Made by a program: the position numbers and the translations under genes. Below, piece by piece: positions 3,300-7,107 of a stretch of 64,000 nt of DNA. The notes under the pieces are model-generated. The model searched no databases. It was not told the origin of the DNA and was given only the letters and a program-made list of their open reading frames with translations. This DNA comes from Solitalea canadensis DSM 3403 (GTDB lineage: Bacteria > Bacteroidota > Bacteroidia > Sphingobacteriales > Sphingobacteriaceae). The stretch covers positions 4,042,669 to 4,106,668 of the forward strand of contig NC_017770.1 in NCBI RefSeq assembly GCF_000242635.2, in the 5' to 3' direction. Every line of letters starts with the position of its first letter. Within the stretch, counting starts at the first letter, position 1.

Positions 3300-3320
3300 G
3301 CTGAATTAAATTCATAAAAT

Positions 3321-3764
3321 ATGTATACCGGACTATTACATCTTCACTCTTTTATGCGCTGGATAGCGCTGATTCTGCTGATCATTGCAGTAGTAAAAGC
3401 TGTTAGCGCATGGAATAATAGCAGCAAGCTTTATACAGAAGGAAATCGCAAATTAAATTTGTTTACCTTAATCTCTGTTCACTTACAGTTGGTTATAGGC
3501 TTTGTACTTTATTTCGTAAGTCCTAAAGTTCAATTTGGTGCTTCTACAATGAAAGATGCTCTTATCCGTTACTTTTCGGTTGAACATGCATTTATGATGA
3601 TTATCGCAATTGTATTGATCACAATCGGATACTCAAAAGCTAAACGTCTTGAAATCGGTTTCGAAAAACACAAAAAGATAGCTGTGTTCTATGGACTTGG
3701 TTTATTGGTAATTTTAGTGAGCCTTGCATTAGCACCTTATAACATTATTACCAAGCTTTATTAA
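3321..3764 (+). CDS. four-helix integral membrane protein, cytochrome b-like of Bacteroidota
   Basis: 147 residues with four predicted membrane helices (about 10-28, 48-66, 88-105, 122-140). Histidines sit at or near helix ends (LHLHSFMRW, SVHLQLVIGF, VEHAFMM), a pattern seen in a Bacteroidota family usually labelled cytochrome B or hypothetical membrane protein. Heme binding is only inferred from the histidines. Stands alone, divergent from the amidohydrolase operon and upstream of the trp leader on the same strand. Confidence 0.65.
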   Translation: MYTGLLHLHSFMRWIALILLIIAVVKAVSAWNNSSKLYTEGNRKLNLFTLISVHLQLVIGFVLYFVSPKVQFGASTMKDALIRYFSVEHAFMMIIAIVLITIGYSKAKRLEIGFEKHKKIAVFYGLGLLVILVSLALAPYNIITKLY

Positions 3765-3807
3765 ATTTTATTTGGAAAGCTCGTTTGAGTTTTTCATTTT
3801 TGAATCC

Positions 3808-3858
3808 ATGAACAAAATCAACTCAAATAATTTTGCCTGGTGGCGTTGCAATAATTAA
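3808..3858 (+). CDS. trpL: trp operon leader peptide with tandem Trp codons
   Basis: A 16-codon frame reads MNKINSNNFAWWRCNN and stops with TAA. Two adjacent Trp codons (TGG TGG, 3838-3843) in a 16-residue peptide, located 185 bp before trpE and followed by a terminator with a complementary upstream segment, identify it as the sensor peptide of a ribosome-mediated attenuator. When charged tRNA-Trp is scarce, the ribosome should stall at these codons. The frame is directly visible; translation and function are inferred from the classical trp attenuation mechanism. Confidence 0.85.
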   Translation: MNKINSNNFAWWRCNN

Positions 3859-3927
3859 TTGCGACAAGGGCTTTTATTTGAGTTTATGATATAACCATCA
3901 CAATAAGATATTATGAAGCTTGTCGCA
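3820..3927 (+). promoter_or_regulatory. trp attenuator: alternative RNA pairings (leader stem and antiterminator)
   Basis: Two mutually relevant pairings are exact. (i) AACTCAAATAA at 3820-3830, inside the leader peptide frame, is the perfect complement of TTATTTGAGTT at 3874-3884. (ii) TGCGACAAG at 3860-3868, just behind the leader stop codon, is the perfect 9-bp complement of CTTGTCGCA at 3919-3927, the 5' arm of the terminator. A ribosome stalled on the Trp codons would cover segment (i), keep it unpaired and favour pairing (ii), which destroys the terminator. A ribosome that finishes the peptide would sit over the stop and segment 3860-3868 and let the terminator form. The logic is inference; the complementarities are seen in the sequence. 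Confidence 0.8.
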
Positions 3928-3945
3928 CTGCGGCAAGCTTTTTTT
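3916..3945 (+). terminator. intrinsic terminator of the trp attenuator
   Basis: AAGCTTGTCGC, loop ACT, GCGGCAAGCTT: an 11-bp stem with one G-U pair, followed by a T run through 3945. It lies 98 bp before the trpE start and its 5' arm overlaps the antiterminator pairing, so it is a conditional terminator rather than the end of the upstream gene. Confidence 0.85.
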
Positions 3946-4042
3946 ATGCTCTTTCCGCAGCAACGAGTAATAGTAATTTGTTATTGATGAATTAGTTAAC
4001 AGATTTAAAACATTTTCTTCAATCAACAGAAAAAACACAATT

Positions 4043-5452
4043 ATGAACTATAGATCAGAAACAACCTTTAAAAAACTATTAGCAGATACGGCCACTCCGG
4101 TTAGTATTTACCTGCGTTTACGGGATGAGTTTCCTAACAGCGTACTGCTTGAAAGCTCAGATTACCATACCCGACAAAACAGCATGTCTTACATCTGTTG
4201 CAACTCCGTAGCAGAAGTAAGAATTGAAGACGGAATTTATACAGAACAGTTTCCGGATGGCTCATCCACTCGTTTCAGTGCAGCTGAAGAGAGTATTACC
4301 AAACGTTTAACTGCATTTTGTAATCGGTTTGAGTATGATAATACACATAAGTTCAACTTTATAACTAACGGACTTTTTGGTTATTTTAATTACGAAATGA
4401 TTGAGCATTTTGAAGACATTAAGCTTCATAGCGCTCCCCGACCAGAACGAAAAACACCTGAATTATTATACAATGTTTACCAGATTGTAATTGCCATCAA
4501 TCACTTCAAAAACGAATTATACATTTTCAATCACAACTATGCTGATCATCAAAGCAAAACAAGTATTGAGCGCATTGAATACTTAATTCGTAATAAAGAT
4601 TTTCCTCAATATAAGTTTAAGGCATTAAACCATGAAACCTCTAATTTTACAGATGAAGAGTTTCTGTCGGTATTAGAAAAAGCCCAGAATAATGTATATC
4701 GTGGTGACGTTTTCCAAATTCAGATATCAAGGAGTTTTTCTCAAGAGTTTCAAGGCGATGATTTCAATGTTTACCGTGCATTGCGTTCGATCAACCCTTC
4801 TCCATACCTGTTTTACTTTGATTATGGAAACTTCAAACTTTTTGGTTCTTCACCGGAAATCCAACTTGGAATTAAAAATGGAGTAGCCTCTATCCACCCT
4901 ATTGCAGGCACGTTTAGAAGAACCGGAGATGACGCCGCAGATGCAGAATTAGCTGAAAAACTAAAACAAGATCCGAAAGAAAACGCCGAACATGTAATGT
5001 TGGTTGATTTGGCTCGGAACGACTTAAGCAGACATTGCGACCATGTTAAGGTTGATCGCTTCTGTGAAATTCAGTATTACTCTCACGTAATTCACCTTGT
5101 ATCGGCTGTCACCGGAAAACTTAAAAAACATACTGAACCGTTAAATGTGGTTGCCGATACTTTTCCGGCAGGTACACTATCAGGTGCGCCAAAATATCGT
5201 TCAATGCAATTAATTGATGAATACGAAAACGGACAACGTGGTTTCTACAGCGGTGCGATTGGCTTCTTAGGCTTTAACGGAGAGTTTAACCATGCCATTA
5301 TGATCCGTACCTTTATGAGTAAAAACAACACCTTAAACTACCAGGCTGCTGCGGGAGTTGTTGCAGACTCGGTATTAACGAGTGAACGCCAGGAGGTATA
5401 TAACAAGATGGCCGCATTGAAAAAAGCAATTGAATTGGCGGAGGAAATATAA
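4043..5452 (+). CDS. trpE: anthranilate synthase component I
   Basis: 469 residues, the usual TrpE length. It converts chorismate plus ammonia to anthranilate, with ammonia supplied by TrpG. The N-terminal half carries LLESSD, the conserved site for tryptophan feedback inhibition. The C-terminal chorismate-binding half shows HPIAGTFRRTGDD, HVMLVDLARNDLSR, SHVIHLVSAVTG, FPAGTLSGAPK and the final AAAGVVADS...E motif. The LLES motif and the trp leader in front separate it from aminodeoxychorismate synthase PabB. First structural gene of the leader-controlled unit; trpG follows after 119 bp. Confidence 0.95.
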   Translation: MNYRSETTFKKLLADTATPVSIYLRLRDEFPNSVLLESSDYHTRQNSMSYICCNSVAEVRIEDGIYTEQFPDGSSTRFSAAEESITKRLTAFCNRFEYDNTHKFNFITNGLFGYFNYEMIEHFEDIKLHSAPRPERKTPELLYNVYQIVIAINHFKNELYIFNHNYADHQSKTSIERIEYLIRNKDFPQYKFKALNHETSNFTDEEFLSVLEKAQNNVYRGDVFQIQISRSFSQEFQGDDFNVYRALRSINPSPYLFYFDYGNFKLFGSSPEIQLGIKNGVASIHPIAGTFRRTGDDAADAELAEKLKQDPKENAEHVMLVDLARNDLSRHCDHVKVDRFCEIQYYSHVIHLVSAVTGKLKKHTEPLNVVADTFPAGTLSGAPKYRSMQLIDEYENGQRGFYSGAIGFLGFNGEFNHAIMIRTFMSKNNTLNYQAAAGVVADSVLTSERQEVYNKMAALKKAIELAEEI

Positions 5453-5507
5453 CACCTCACCCGGCCTTCCTCAAGGAGAGGAGTACTTAGCAAACGGGAA
5501 TGGCTTA

Positions 5508-5561
5508 GGTGTAATCACACAAGCAATCAGTGTAATCCACTCAAATAATCGGTGTAATCAC
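5508..5561 (+). repeat. three phased GTGTAATC repeats between trpE and trpG
   Basis: GTGTAATC begins at 5509, 5530 and 5552, spaced 21 and 22 bp, in the longer forms ggtgtaatcac, cagtgtaatccac and cggtgtaatcac. The spacing equals two helical turns. The preceding sequence (5453-5500) is GC-richer than its surroundings and non-coding. A protein-binding array or a relic of intergenic repeat words are both possible. Confidence 0.55.
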
Positions 5562-5571
5562 ATAAAAAACA

Positions 5572-6141
5572 ATGAAAATATTAATTCTAGATAATTACGA
5601 TTCGTTTACTTACAACCTAGTTCATTTGGTTGAAGAAATTGGGATCGGTGAAGTTTCTGTATTCAGAAACGATAAGATCTCATTAGCTGATGTGGCTAAT
5701 TATGACAAAATAATTCTTTCTCCTGGTCCGGGTTTACCGGAAGAAGCAGGGATTATGCCTCAGCTGATTAAAGAATATGCGGGCAAAAAACCGATTTTCG
5801 GCGTTTGCTTAGGTCATCAGGCAATTGGCGAAGCTTTTGGAGCAAAACTTTTTAATTTATCACGTGTACTACATGGTGTTGCTTCACCCATCAACATTAC
5901 AGATGCTAATGAACTTATTTTCAAAAATGTTCCTCAAGGTGTAAATATTGGTCATTATCATTCTTGGGCTGTTGCGAATGAGGATTTGCCTGATACATTA
6001 ACCGTTACTGCGGTTTCTGGTGATGGGACAATTATGGCAATGCGCCATAAAGAGTTTGACGTATGCGGTGTTCAGTTTCATCCCGAATCTGTATTAACGG
6101 AGCATGGTAGAACGATGCTTGAAAACTGGTTGAAAAATTAA
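5572..6141 (+). CDS. trpG: anthranilate synthase component II, glutamine amidotransferase
   Basis: 189 residues, a class I glutamine amidotransferase that hydrolyses glutamine and passes ammonia to TrpE. Seen: N-terminal MKILILDNYDSFTYN, oxyanion segment SPGPGLPEEAG, nucleophile Cys79 in GVCLGHQAIGEAFG and the His-Glu pair in VQFHPESVLTEHG. Could also serve folate synthesis (PabA role), as in many bacteria with one amidotransferase. Only 7 bp separates its stop from trpC. Confidence 0.93.
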   Translation: MKILILDNYDSFTYNLVHLVEEIGIGEVSVFRNDKISLADVANYDKIILSPGPGLPEEAGIMPQLIKEYAGKKPIFGVCLGHQAIGEAFGAKLFNLSRVLHGVASPINITDANELIFKNVPQGVNIGHYHSWAVANEDLPDTLTVTAVSGDGTIMAMRHKEFDVCGVQFHPESVLTEHGRTMLENWLKN

Positions 6142-6148
6142 CAAAAAA

Positions 6149-6943
6149 ATGACCATTCTTGATAAAATAGTTGCCCGGAAACGGGAAGAGATAATTGAAA
6201 ACAAAGCGCGCGTTTCAACTGATGAACTGGAGCAGGCTGAGTTTTTTGACCGCAAATGTTATTCATTGCGGGAAGCATTAACTCAACCCGATAAAGTGGG
6301 CATTATTGCTGAATTCAAACGCAGATCGCCTTCGAAAGGAATTTTAAACGCAACTGCTGATGTGGTGGAAACCACACAAGGTTATGTAAATTCAGGAGCA
6401 TCGGTGCTTTCCATTTTAACAGATATCGACTTTTTTAATGGCAGCAACGAAAATGTAATAAAAGCACGCAGAGCTAATGAAGTTCCTATCCTAAGAAAAG
6501 ATTTCATTGTTGATGAATATCAGATTCTGGAAGCAAAGGCTATTGGAGCCGATGTTATTTTGCTTATTGCCGCTTGCCTTAATCCTGAAGAACTGAAAAG
6601 ATTAGGCGCATTTACGCATAGCTTAGGAATGAGTGTTTTGTTAGAAGTACACGATAAGGAAGAATTATTACGAAGCATTAATCCGCATATTGACGCTATT
6701 GGTGTTAACAATCGTAACCTTGCCACTTTTAATGTAGATGTACAAACATCATTCGAACTAGCAGACCTCATACCAAATGATTTCGTCAAGGTTTCTGAAA
6801 GCGCCCTGTCACAAGCCCAAACCATTATCGACCTTAAAAAGGCCGGATTCGGTGGCTTCCTGATCGGCGAAACGTTTATGAAAACTAATGATCCCGCGAA
6901 GGCATGTAAGGAGTTTGTGGAGGAAGTAAAGAACCTATCATAA
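6149..6943 (+). CDS. trpC: indole-3-glycerol-phosphate synthase
   Basis: 264 residues, TIM-barrel enzyme that closes the indole ring from carboxyphenylamino-deoxyribulose phosphate. Motifs in order: IIAEFKRRSPSKGIL (catalytic Glu and Lys), PILRKDFIVDEYQI, VLLEVHDKEEL, IGVNNRNL, KVSESALS, GGFLIGETFM. It sits directly behind trpG where trpD (phosphoribosyltransferase) would usually come first, and trpF, trpB and trpA do not follow, so the pathway genes are split in this genome. Probably under the same leader control as trpE. Confidence 0.93.
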   Translation: MTILDKIVARKREEIIENKARVSTDELEQAEFFDRKCYSLREALTQPDKVGIIAEFKRRSPSKGILNATADVVETTQGYVNSGASVLSILTDIDFFNGSNENVIKARRANEVPILRKDFIVDEYQILEAKAIGADVILLIAACLNPEELKRLGAFTHSLGMSVLLEVHDKEELLRSINPHIDAIGVNNRNLATFNVDVQTSFELADLIPNDFVKVSESALSQAQTIIDLKKAGFGGFLIGETFMKTNDPAKACKEFVEEVKNLS

Positions 6944-6955
6944 GGACCATAGTAC

Positions 6956-7049
6956 ATTTATAACGTTTTATAATATCCGTAAATCAGCTAAAAGTTTACA
7001 TGGGGTTTTAAGTCTATAGTTCGTAAACAATTATAAAACGTTTTATAAT
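6956..7049. repeat. 20-bp perfect palindrome and a half-degenerate copy
   Basis: attataaaacgttttataat at 7030-7049 is an exact 20-bp palindrome. A related site, atttataacgttttataat, lies at 6956-6974 just after the trpC stop. Between and behind them are permuted short words (actatggact, ggaccatgga at 7063-7095). Two similar palindromes in a 190-bp gene gap suggest an operator pair for a dimeric regulator or a decayed mobile-repeat unit. There is no T run, so they do not look like terminators. Confidence 0.5.
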
Positions 7050-7107
7050 CAGGCAGTAAAGAGACTATGGACTTTGGACCATGGACTATGGACTGTAATT
7101 TTTTCCG

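Follow-up and report, generated by a model that had tools for sequence, protein, structure and literature searches.

The trp leader of E. coli (trpL; Rfam RF00513, Trp_leader) encodes a peptide of 14 codons with tandem Trp codons and has a 5′ UTR, in contrast to the start predicted below for Solitalea. In Pseudomonas, trpE and trpGDC attenuators provide two attenuators in one split trp pathway, as in Solitalea, although the phylum and the gene split are different. Within Bacteroidota, the Rfam family RF01692 (Bacteroid-trp) represents the Bacteroidete tryptophan peptide leader RNA and derives from PMC2864571, whose main text names it once, in Table 1; it is discussed as structured like the E. 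coli leader in PMC6414381. Furthermore, PMC9723704 mentions strong clues for leader-peptide attenuation upstream of amino-acid biosynthesis operons. The view that attenuation is little studied in Bacteroidota, expressed in the initial annotation of the DNA analyzed here, therefore stands only in part: the lineage is less studied, but its trp leaders are already described in PMC2864571 and PMC6414381. Finally, Sinorhizobium meliloti has separate trpE(G) and trpDC and a leader RNA that starts with the trpL ATG; there, attenuation operates at trpE(G) while trpDC is controlled in trans, whereas in Solitalea both operons have an attenuator (PMC7298713).

We analyzed a stretch of 64,000 nucleotides (the window) of the Solitalea canadensis DSM 3403 genome, which consists of a single contig of 5.2 Mb. 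Ahead of trpE, the window contains what is very probably a ribosome-mediated transcription attenuator of the trpEGC operon. Its elements, together with the predicted promoter and the genes that follow, are:

3771–3774, + strand: TTTG, −33 element of the predicted promoter, separated from the −7 box by 20 nt; with the −7 box set at −12 to −5 (PMC9723704), it would occupy −36 to −33
3795–3802, + strand: −7-like element CATTTTTG (consensus TAnnTTTG, first base off; predicted only)
3808–3858, + strand: leader peptide ORF, ATG at 3808 and TAA at 3856–3858, encoding MNKINSNNFAWWRCNN; its 5′ UTR is possibly about 1 nt (predicted)
3820–3830, + strand: region 1, outer arm, 11 bp with 3874–3884 (inverted repeat and folding)
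3838–3843, + strand: tandem Trp control codons TGG TGG (direct sequence reading)
3845–3852, + strand: region 1, inner arm, 8 bp with 3858–3865, directly behind the Trp codons (folding)
3858–3868, + strand: region 2, of which 3858–3865 pairs with region 1, or the antiterminator strand 3860–3868 with region 3
3874–3884, + strand: 3′ partner of the outer stem (inverted repeat and folding)
3916–3926, + strand: region 3, the 5′ arm of the terminator; the partner in the antiterminator is 3919–3927
3930–3945, + strand: region 4 (3930–3940) and T run (3939–3945), intrinsic terminator (sequence)
4043–5452, + strand: trpE, anthranilate synthase component I (best NCBIfam model trpE_most, E 1.4e-127, 426.5 bits, below the curated cut-off of 517.7)
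5572–6141, + strand: trpG, glutamine amidotransferase of anthranilate synthase (TIGR00566 trpG_papA over its cut-off; named by context)
6149–6943, + strand: trpC, indole-3-glycerol phosphate synthase (NF001377 over its cut-off)

Among Rfam families, RF01692 is the best one for the window leader, which it matches over its full length and with the Trp codons in register. The match scores 30.7 bits (E 0.11 for 351 nt) and does not reach the gathering cut-off of 49; thus, the leader works like an RF01692 member, yet it is not filed as one under Rfam's own rule. Indeed, nothing in the window reaches any gathering score, and the RF01692 cut-off is exceeded in only 2 of the 61 genomes searched in the order (Sphingobacteriales). 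Matches at E up to 10 occur in 56 of these genomes; some chance hits must be expected at this level, and not every one was tied to trp genes. The RF00513 covariance model gave no match at E up to 10 in 3700–4050, with the E. coli control scoring 93.1 bits. The mechanism is an ordinary one and the family is already in Rfam, the window element being a divergent example in a less-studied lineage. Among the TrpE matches listed, those from the closest named relatives, Solitalea longa and S. agri, each show 90% identity.

The initial annotation had placed the whole set of attenuator elements in 138 bp (3808–3945), and every detail of this description is correct in the sequence. The 16-codon peptide with TGG TGG is MNKINSNNFAWWRCNN, a predicted short ORF lying 5′ of the tryptophan biosynthesis genes trpE, trpG and trpC. 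The antiterminator (3860–3868 with 3919–3927) is indeed an exact 9-bp duplex, as the two strands are 100% complementary over 9 nt in an inverted-repeat search, which also returns the exact 11-bp leader stem as the core (3820–3830/3874–3884) of a longer repeat (3817–3830 with 3874–3887; 14 nt, 93% complementary). The same search finds the terminator arms (3916–3927/3929–3940, 92% complementary); as annotated, the terminator comprises 11 bp (3916–3926/3930–3940), of which one is a G-U pair, and a T run (T3939–3945), and it is located between the leader ORF and the first structural gene. The antiterminator excludes the terminator, its exact 9 bp sharing 3919–3926 with the terminator arm. Folding of 3808–3945 yields −41.9 kcal/mol (z −4.83), a value equaled by none of 200 shuffles. 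In the fold, regions 1 and 2 form an interrupted hairpin around the Trp codons, and most of the antiterminator strand lies within it; between the inner and outer arms, 3835–3838 pairs with 3868–3871.

A further claim, that this layout departs from that of E. coli, turned out to be mostly wrong. The possibility that region 1 is absent was rejected since an inner arm (3845–3852), which pairs with the antiterminator strand, is found in the fold. The folding models suggest that the Solitalea trpE layout is essentially that of E. coli, with region 1 (3845–3852, 3835–3838 and the outer arm 3820–3830) bracketing the Trp codons. Bases of the Trp codons pair with region 2 in 44 of the 53 trpE leaders of the order having a strict terminator, and with something 3′ of them in all 53; in the window, such 3′ pairing is limited to the first base of the Trp codons. 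Hence, the window leader appears slightly shifted with respect to its relatives, on the same plan. The likeness to E. coli trpL extends to the tandem Trp codons (in a leader of 16 instead of 14 codons), to the terminator, antiterminator and 1:2 hairpin, and to a similar response of the folding to the stall position. On the other hand, the Solitalea pathway is split over two operons with one attenuator each, the first codons of the leader are in part engaged in an outer stem, and the predicted 5′ UTR is possibly almost nil.

The proposed sequence of events is as follows. RNA polymerase would probably start almost at the leader ATG. When charged tRNA-Trp is ample, the ribosome would reach the stop codon UAA (3856–3858), where its footprint, assumed to reach 12 nt beyond the first A-site nucleotide and so to end at 3868, would cover region 2, so that the terminator (3916–3940) could form and transcription would end ahead of trpE. 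When charged tRNA-Trp is scarce, the ribosome would stall at the tandem Trp codons and cover region 1 (to 3850 or 3853); region 2 would then pair with region 3 (3860–3868 with 3919–3927) and the operon would be read. Without translation, regions 1 and 2 would close into the long interrupted hairpin, with 11 bp in its outer and 8 bp in its inner part, and the default would be the terminator.

The effect of the ribosome position was modeled by deleting all sequence through the position 12 nt beyond the first A-site nucleotide; the readout was how far region 3 pairs with sequence upstream of it while region 4 is still untranscribed. The model covers 56 of 61 trpE leaders and 52 of 61 trpD leaders (described below), the rest being without a terminator or a leader passing the rules. 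In the E. coli trpL control, antiterminator pairing is 0.29 with free RNA, 0.71 with the ribosome at Trp and 0.01 at the stop codon. The corresponding means are 0.40, 0.66 (best Trp codon) and 0.14 for the trpE leaders, and 0.33, 0.80 and 0.26 for the trpD leaders. In the window, a ribosome stalled at Trp would mask the 5′ arm of the 1:2 hairpin (3845–3852/3858–3865), and the modeled pairing rises from 0.40 to 0.85. Trp and stop are poorly separated here. A ribosome at the stop codon would extend to the end of region 2 (3856 + 12 = 3868), but the model leaves an antiterminator pairing of 0.57. The difference between Trp and stop exceeds 0.2 in 56/56 trpE and 51/52 trpD leaders, that between Trp and free RNA in only 34/56 and 39/52, respectively. 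In addition, stalls at the eight codons preceding the Trp codons of the trpE leaders give 0.55–0.64 on average, near the Trp value. The model thus favors the arrangement of region 2 and the stop codon, but alone is no proof of Trp specificity, which rests on the true ribosome stall sites because stalls at earlier codons pair nearly as well.

The conservation of the leader was investigated in 61 genomes of the order, in all of which TrpE is present. A leader ORF beginning with ATG, 6–40 codons long, containing WW, WWW or WxW and located at most 400 nt upstream of trpE was found in 61/61 genomes, as compared to 22 of 1830 dinucleotide shuffles (1.2%) and 1 of 61 minus strands. The Trp codons, whose conservation the initial annotation had made decisive, recur in all 61 trpE leaders (29 WW, 24 WxW and 8 WWW) while the other codons vary; the leader has 16 codons and WW in all four Solitalea genomes searched. 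Region 2 begins 13–22 nt past the Trp codons in 52 of 53 trpE leaders, a spacing that is what the ribosome footprint demands (eight of the 61 leaders, with no strict terminator, were left out); the 2:3 duplex has a z below −2 in 25 of these 53. In the wider phylum, of 46 loci for which 400 nt or more of upstream sequence were available, 39 have the leader ORF, four more loci being too short on that side; these loci are the best-scoring TrpE matches plus three added loci rather than a random draw (in one phylum search, TrpE matched in 102 of 118 genomes and the loci came from the best 30). Of the seven misses, at least one (L077) has a visible leader and is an anchoring artefact. WWW leader ORFs upstream of trpE are also seen outside the class of the window, in the same phylum (L124, L126 and L128). 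A single element of this type is ordinary; the addition made here is one of breadth, as it recurs throughout the genomes searched in the order and in 18 further families of the phylum.

The initial annotation had proposed to look for covarying stem changes in related genomes, and the outcome depends on the stem. Four sets of leaders were aligned: A1, with 28 WW or WWW leaders picked by hand (27 of the 61 trpE leaders plus L108); A2, with 51 of 57 trpD leaders; A3, with 15 of the 24 WxW leaders; and A4, with 24 of the 57 trpD leaders. As the leaders were selected, the invariance of the Trp codons in these sets is partly by choice. Consensus folds of A1 and A2 recovered the terminator and no other helix, the others being blurred by indels and register shifts; swapped-partner duplexes and the narrower alignments A3 and A4 were used in their place. 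The terminator clearly covaries. In the 28 leaders of A1, 95.1% of its cells pair (slid versions reach 62.3% at most), and two-sided changes occur in 5 of 11 pairs (reached by 3/500 shuffles) and in 16 cells (0/500). A cell stands for a sequence rather than an event; for three of these five pairs, just three sequences apiece carry the changes. Further pair types are not unusual (154/500 shuffles). In A3 (15 sequences, 14 distinct), terminator pairing is 100% (1/500 shuffles). Covariation of the antiterminator across relatives is weak: in A3 its pairing amounts to 95.2%, a value reached by 36/500 shuffles, and its two-sided pair count is reached by 258/500. In the same set, L042 and L047 change regions 2, 3 and 4 jointly, keeping a 2:3 pair that L053 and L058 break. 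Neither the terminator nor the antiterminator shows a two-sided change in the 24 trpD leaders of A4, in which three rows (L141, L145 and L150) are off by one column; here, the variation is mostly G-U wobble in regions 2 and 4 against a nearly fixed region 3.

The outer stem was evaluated by exchanging its partners between dissimilar leaders. In the 61 trpE leaders, native partners have a mean of −9.35 kcal/mol and swapped partners of −6.42 kcal/mol, with z below −2 in 29/61 leaders against shuffles and in 16/61 against swaps. Outer stems with changed sequence thus recur in part of the order, clearly so in the latter 16 leaders. One of the strongest is the window's (−15.7 kcal/mol, z −6.3 against swaps); within Solitalea, its pair T3823–A3881 is A-U in L001 and L107. 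The trpD outer stem is weak, with z below −2 against swaps in 4 of 57 leaders, Solitalea's being one of the four. Two other features of the aligned leaders can be mentioned. The outer stem pairs at least one base of the leader start codon in many relatives (L018, L020, L022, L023, L025, L035 and others), and the start codon could thereby be hidden from re-initiation after the 1:2 hairpin forms. Moreover, many relatives (A1 columns 85–121, e.g., L018 to L046) have a very similar spacer sequence from region 2 to the terminator, with the consensus CTAATCAATTGTAAACCTAATTTGAAACCC; no pairing which would account for the first part of this spacer was found.

A search of the window's own genome with RF01692 gives two places, namely the window leader (30.7 bits) and a site at 1.526 Mb, about 2.5 Mb from the window and just upstream of trpD (33.8 bits). 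At the latter, a leader encoding MKQTVLNNNWWWRSITCIR (WWW) and a terminator precede trpD, trpF, trpB and trpA, trpD being named by PF00591 and the other three from their translations and context. The unlinked trpDFBA operon of Solitalea therefore appears, from these elements, to carry its own attenuator of the same kind. In the order, trpD is present in 61/61 genomes, in each of them on another contig than trpE or more than 1 Mb apart, and a Trp-rich leader within 500 nt ahead of trpD is found in 57 of them, with WWW in 53 of the 57; the gene content past trpD was examined in Solitalea. As for the four genomes missed, L170 is cut by a contig end, G045 and G049 have an RF01692 match further upstream, and L191 has WWW behind a possible TTG start. 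Two points add interest to the system, namely this second attenuator serving the split pathway and a 5′ UTR that may be almost nil.

In Flavobacterium psychrophilum, the sigma-A box TAnnTTTG lies at −12 to −5, leaderless mRNAs amount to 5.5%, and Shine-Dalgarno sites are reported to be absent in Flavobacterium (PMC9723704); in Bacteroides thetaiotaomicron, 3.7% of the 5′ UTRs are shorter than 10 nt (PMC7366714), so that leaderless mRNAs are rare in both species. Placing the box of the window at −12 to −5 predicts a transcription start at about 3807. The pairing of 3784–3791 with 3820–3827, considered as a part of the switch, was rejected as 3784–3791 lies upstream of this predicted start; the same pairing is imperfect in L001 (by eye). 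A TTTG at most 15 nt from the leader ATG is found in 113 of 118 leaders, i.e., in 60/61 at trpE (4–10 nt between) and 53/57 at trpD (6–15 nt). The longer motif NAnnTTTG ends 3–12 nt before the leader ATG in 103/118 (trpE 57/61, trpD 46/57), as compared to 7/232 ordinary ATG ORFs of at least 100 codons in 60 loci of the order and 2/56 in the window; TTTG alone falls at 3–12 nt in 7.6% of base shuffles. The exact TAnnTTTG at 3–12 nt is present in 52/61 trpE leaders and in 0/57 trpD leaders, most of the latter having CA or AA first. By the Flavobacterium box rule, the 5′ UTR would measure 0–6 nt at trpE and 2–11 nt at trpD, and translation of the leader peptides may take place on nearly leaderless mRNA. 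The box near the ATG is not universal in the phylum, occurring in only 3 of 10 leaders of one sampled family (f54).

We tentatively propose, as a possibility just short of an even chance, that the trp pathway of Sphingobacteriales is split (in Solitalea into trpEGC and trpDFBA), each part being under its own attenuator with a leader peptide translated from mRNA that is leaderless or almost so. Ribosomes would in this case initiate at the 5′ end of the nascent transcript, and the use of WWW at trpD (53/57) versus WW or WxW at trpE (53/61) would give the two operons a different graded response to tryptophan scarcity. The chances of this proposal are lowered by the lack of an exact TAnnTTTG in any of the trpD leaders. 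Among the titles and abstract openings of the open-access literature, we recognized no description of paired attenuators or of leaderless trp leaders in Bacteroidota. Paired attenuators with leader ORFs near the predicted 5′ end would offer a handle on attenuation where Shine-Dalgarno initiation is largely absent.

Could the hairpin be a mere terminator of the upstream gene (3321–3764), with the leader ORF and the extra pairings incidental? It lies about 150 nt behind this same-strand ORF, and such sites are common by chance: a pattern scan of 3300–7100 returned four terminator-like sites, the attenuator terminator among them, against 2.9 in shuffles, so the scan on its own is no evidence. We regard this explanation as extremely improbable in view of the recurrence of the Trp-codon leader ORF in every genome of the order that was searched, the proximity of the TTTG of the −7-like box to the leader ATG in all but one of the trpE leaders, and the better pairing of native than of swapped outer-stem partners. 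The same recurrence of the Trp codons, amid variation at the other codons of the leaders, speaks against a sensing of tryptophan without a leader ribosome, be it by a T-box, a TRAP-like protein or a riboswitch, with the ORF as a by-product. Alternative terminator and antiterminator structures would look alike in such systems; nonetheless, the spacing between the Trp codons and region 2 and the absence from the window of any Rfam family at its gathering score make this reading very unlikely.

The last alternative would act besides the attenuation in cis: the attenuated transcript or its peptide could also act in trans on the unlinked trpDFBA mRNA. This possibility is suggested by S. meliloti, in which a leader RNA beginning with the trpL ATG destabilizes the trpDC mRNA (PMC7298713), and by the likewise split pathway of Solitalea with its possibly leaderless leader ORF. 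Nevertheless, an action in trans is not needed, because trpDFBA appears to carry its own attenuator, and we consider it unlikely. The core claim of the initial annotation, a complete trp attenuator with mutually exclusive pairings, is well supported by the conservation of the leader, the covariation of the terminator and the folding at different stall positions.

Leaders of other amino-acid genes were also seen. In the window's own genome, no leader ORF is found directly upstream of ilvB. The same genome has a His leader ORF, MNTKQHIALHRTHHHHGHHHHCA, ahead of hisG (L195; G000:C1, minus strand); it lies some 200 nt before the hisG match at 1088731–1089273, and his may be attenuated as well. Finally, a Phe-rich leader ORF with Tyr and one Trp, MILNNAYWFFGYFYFFSESRD (L196:1341–1406), precedes the PDT (pheA-type) gene of this genome, as read by eye; a strong hairpin and a T run are visible between this ORF and the gene, and the distance from its TACATTTG box to the ATG is greater than in the trp leaders.
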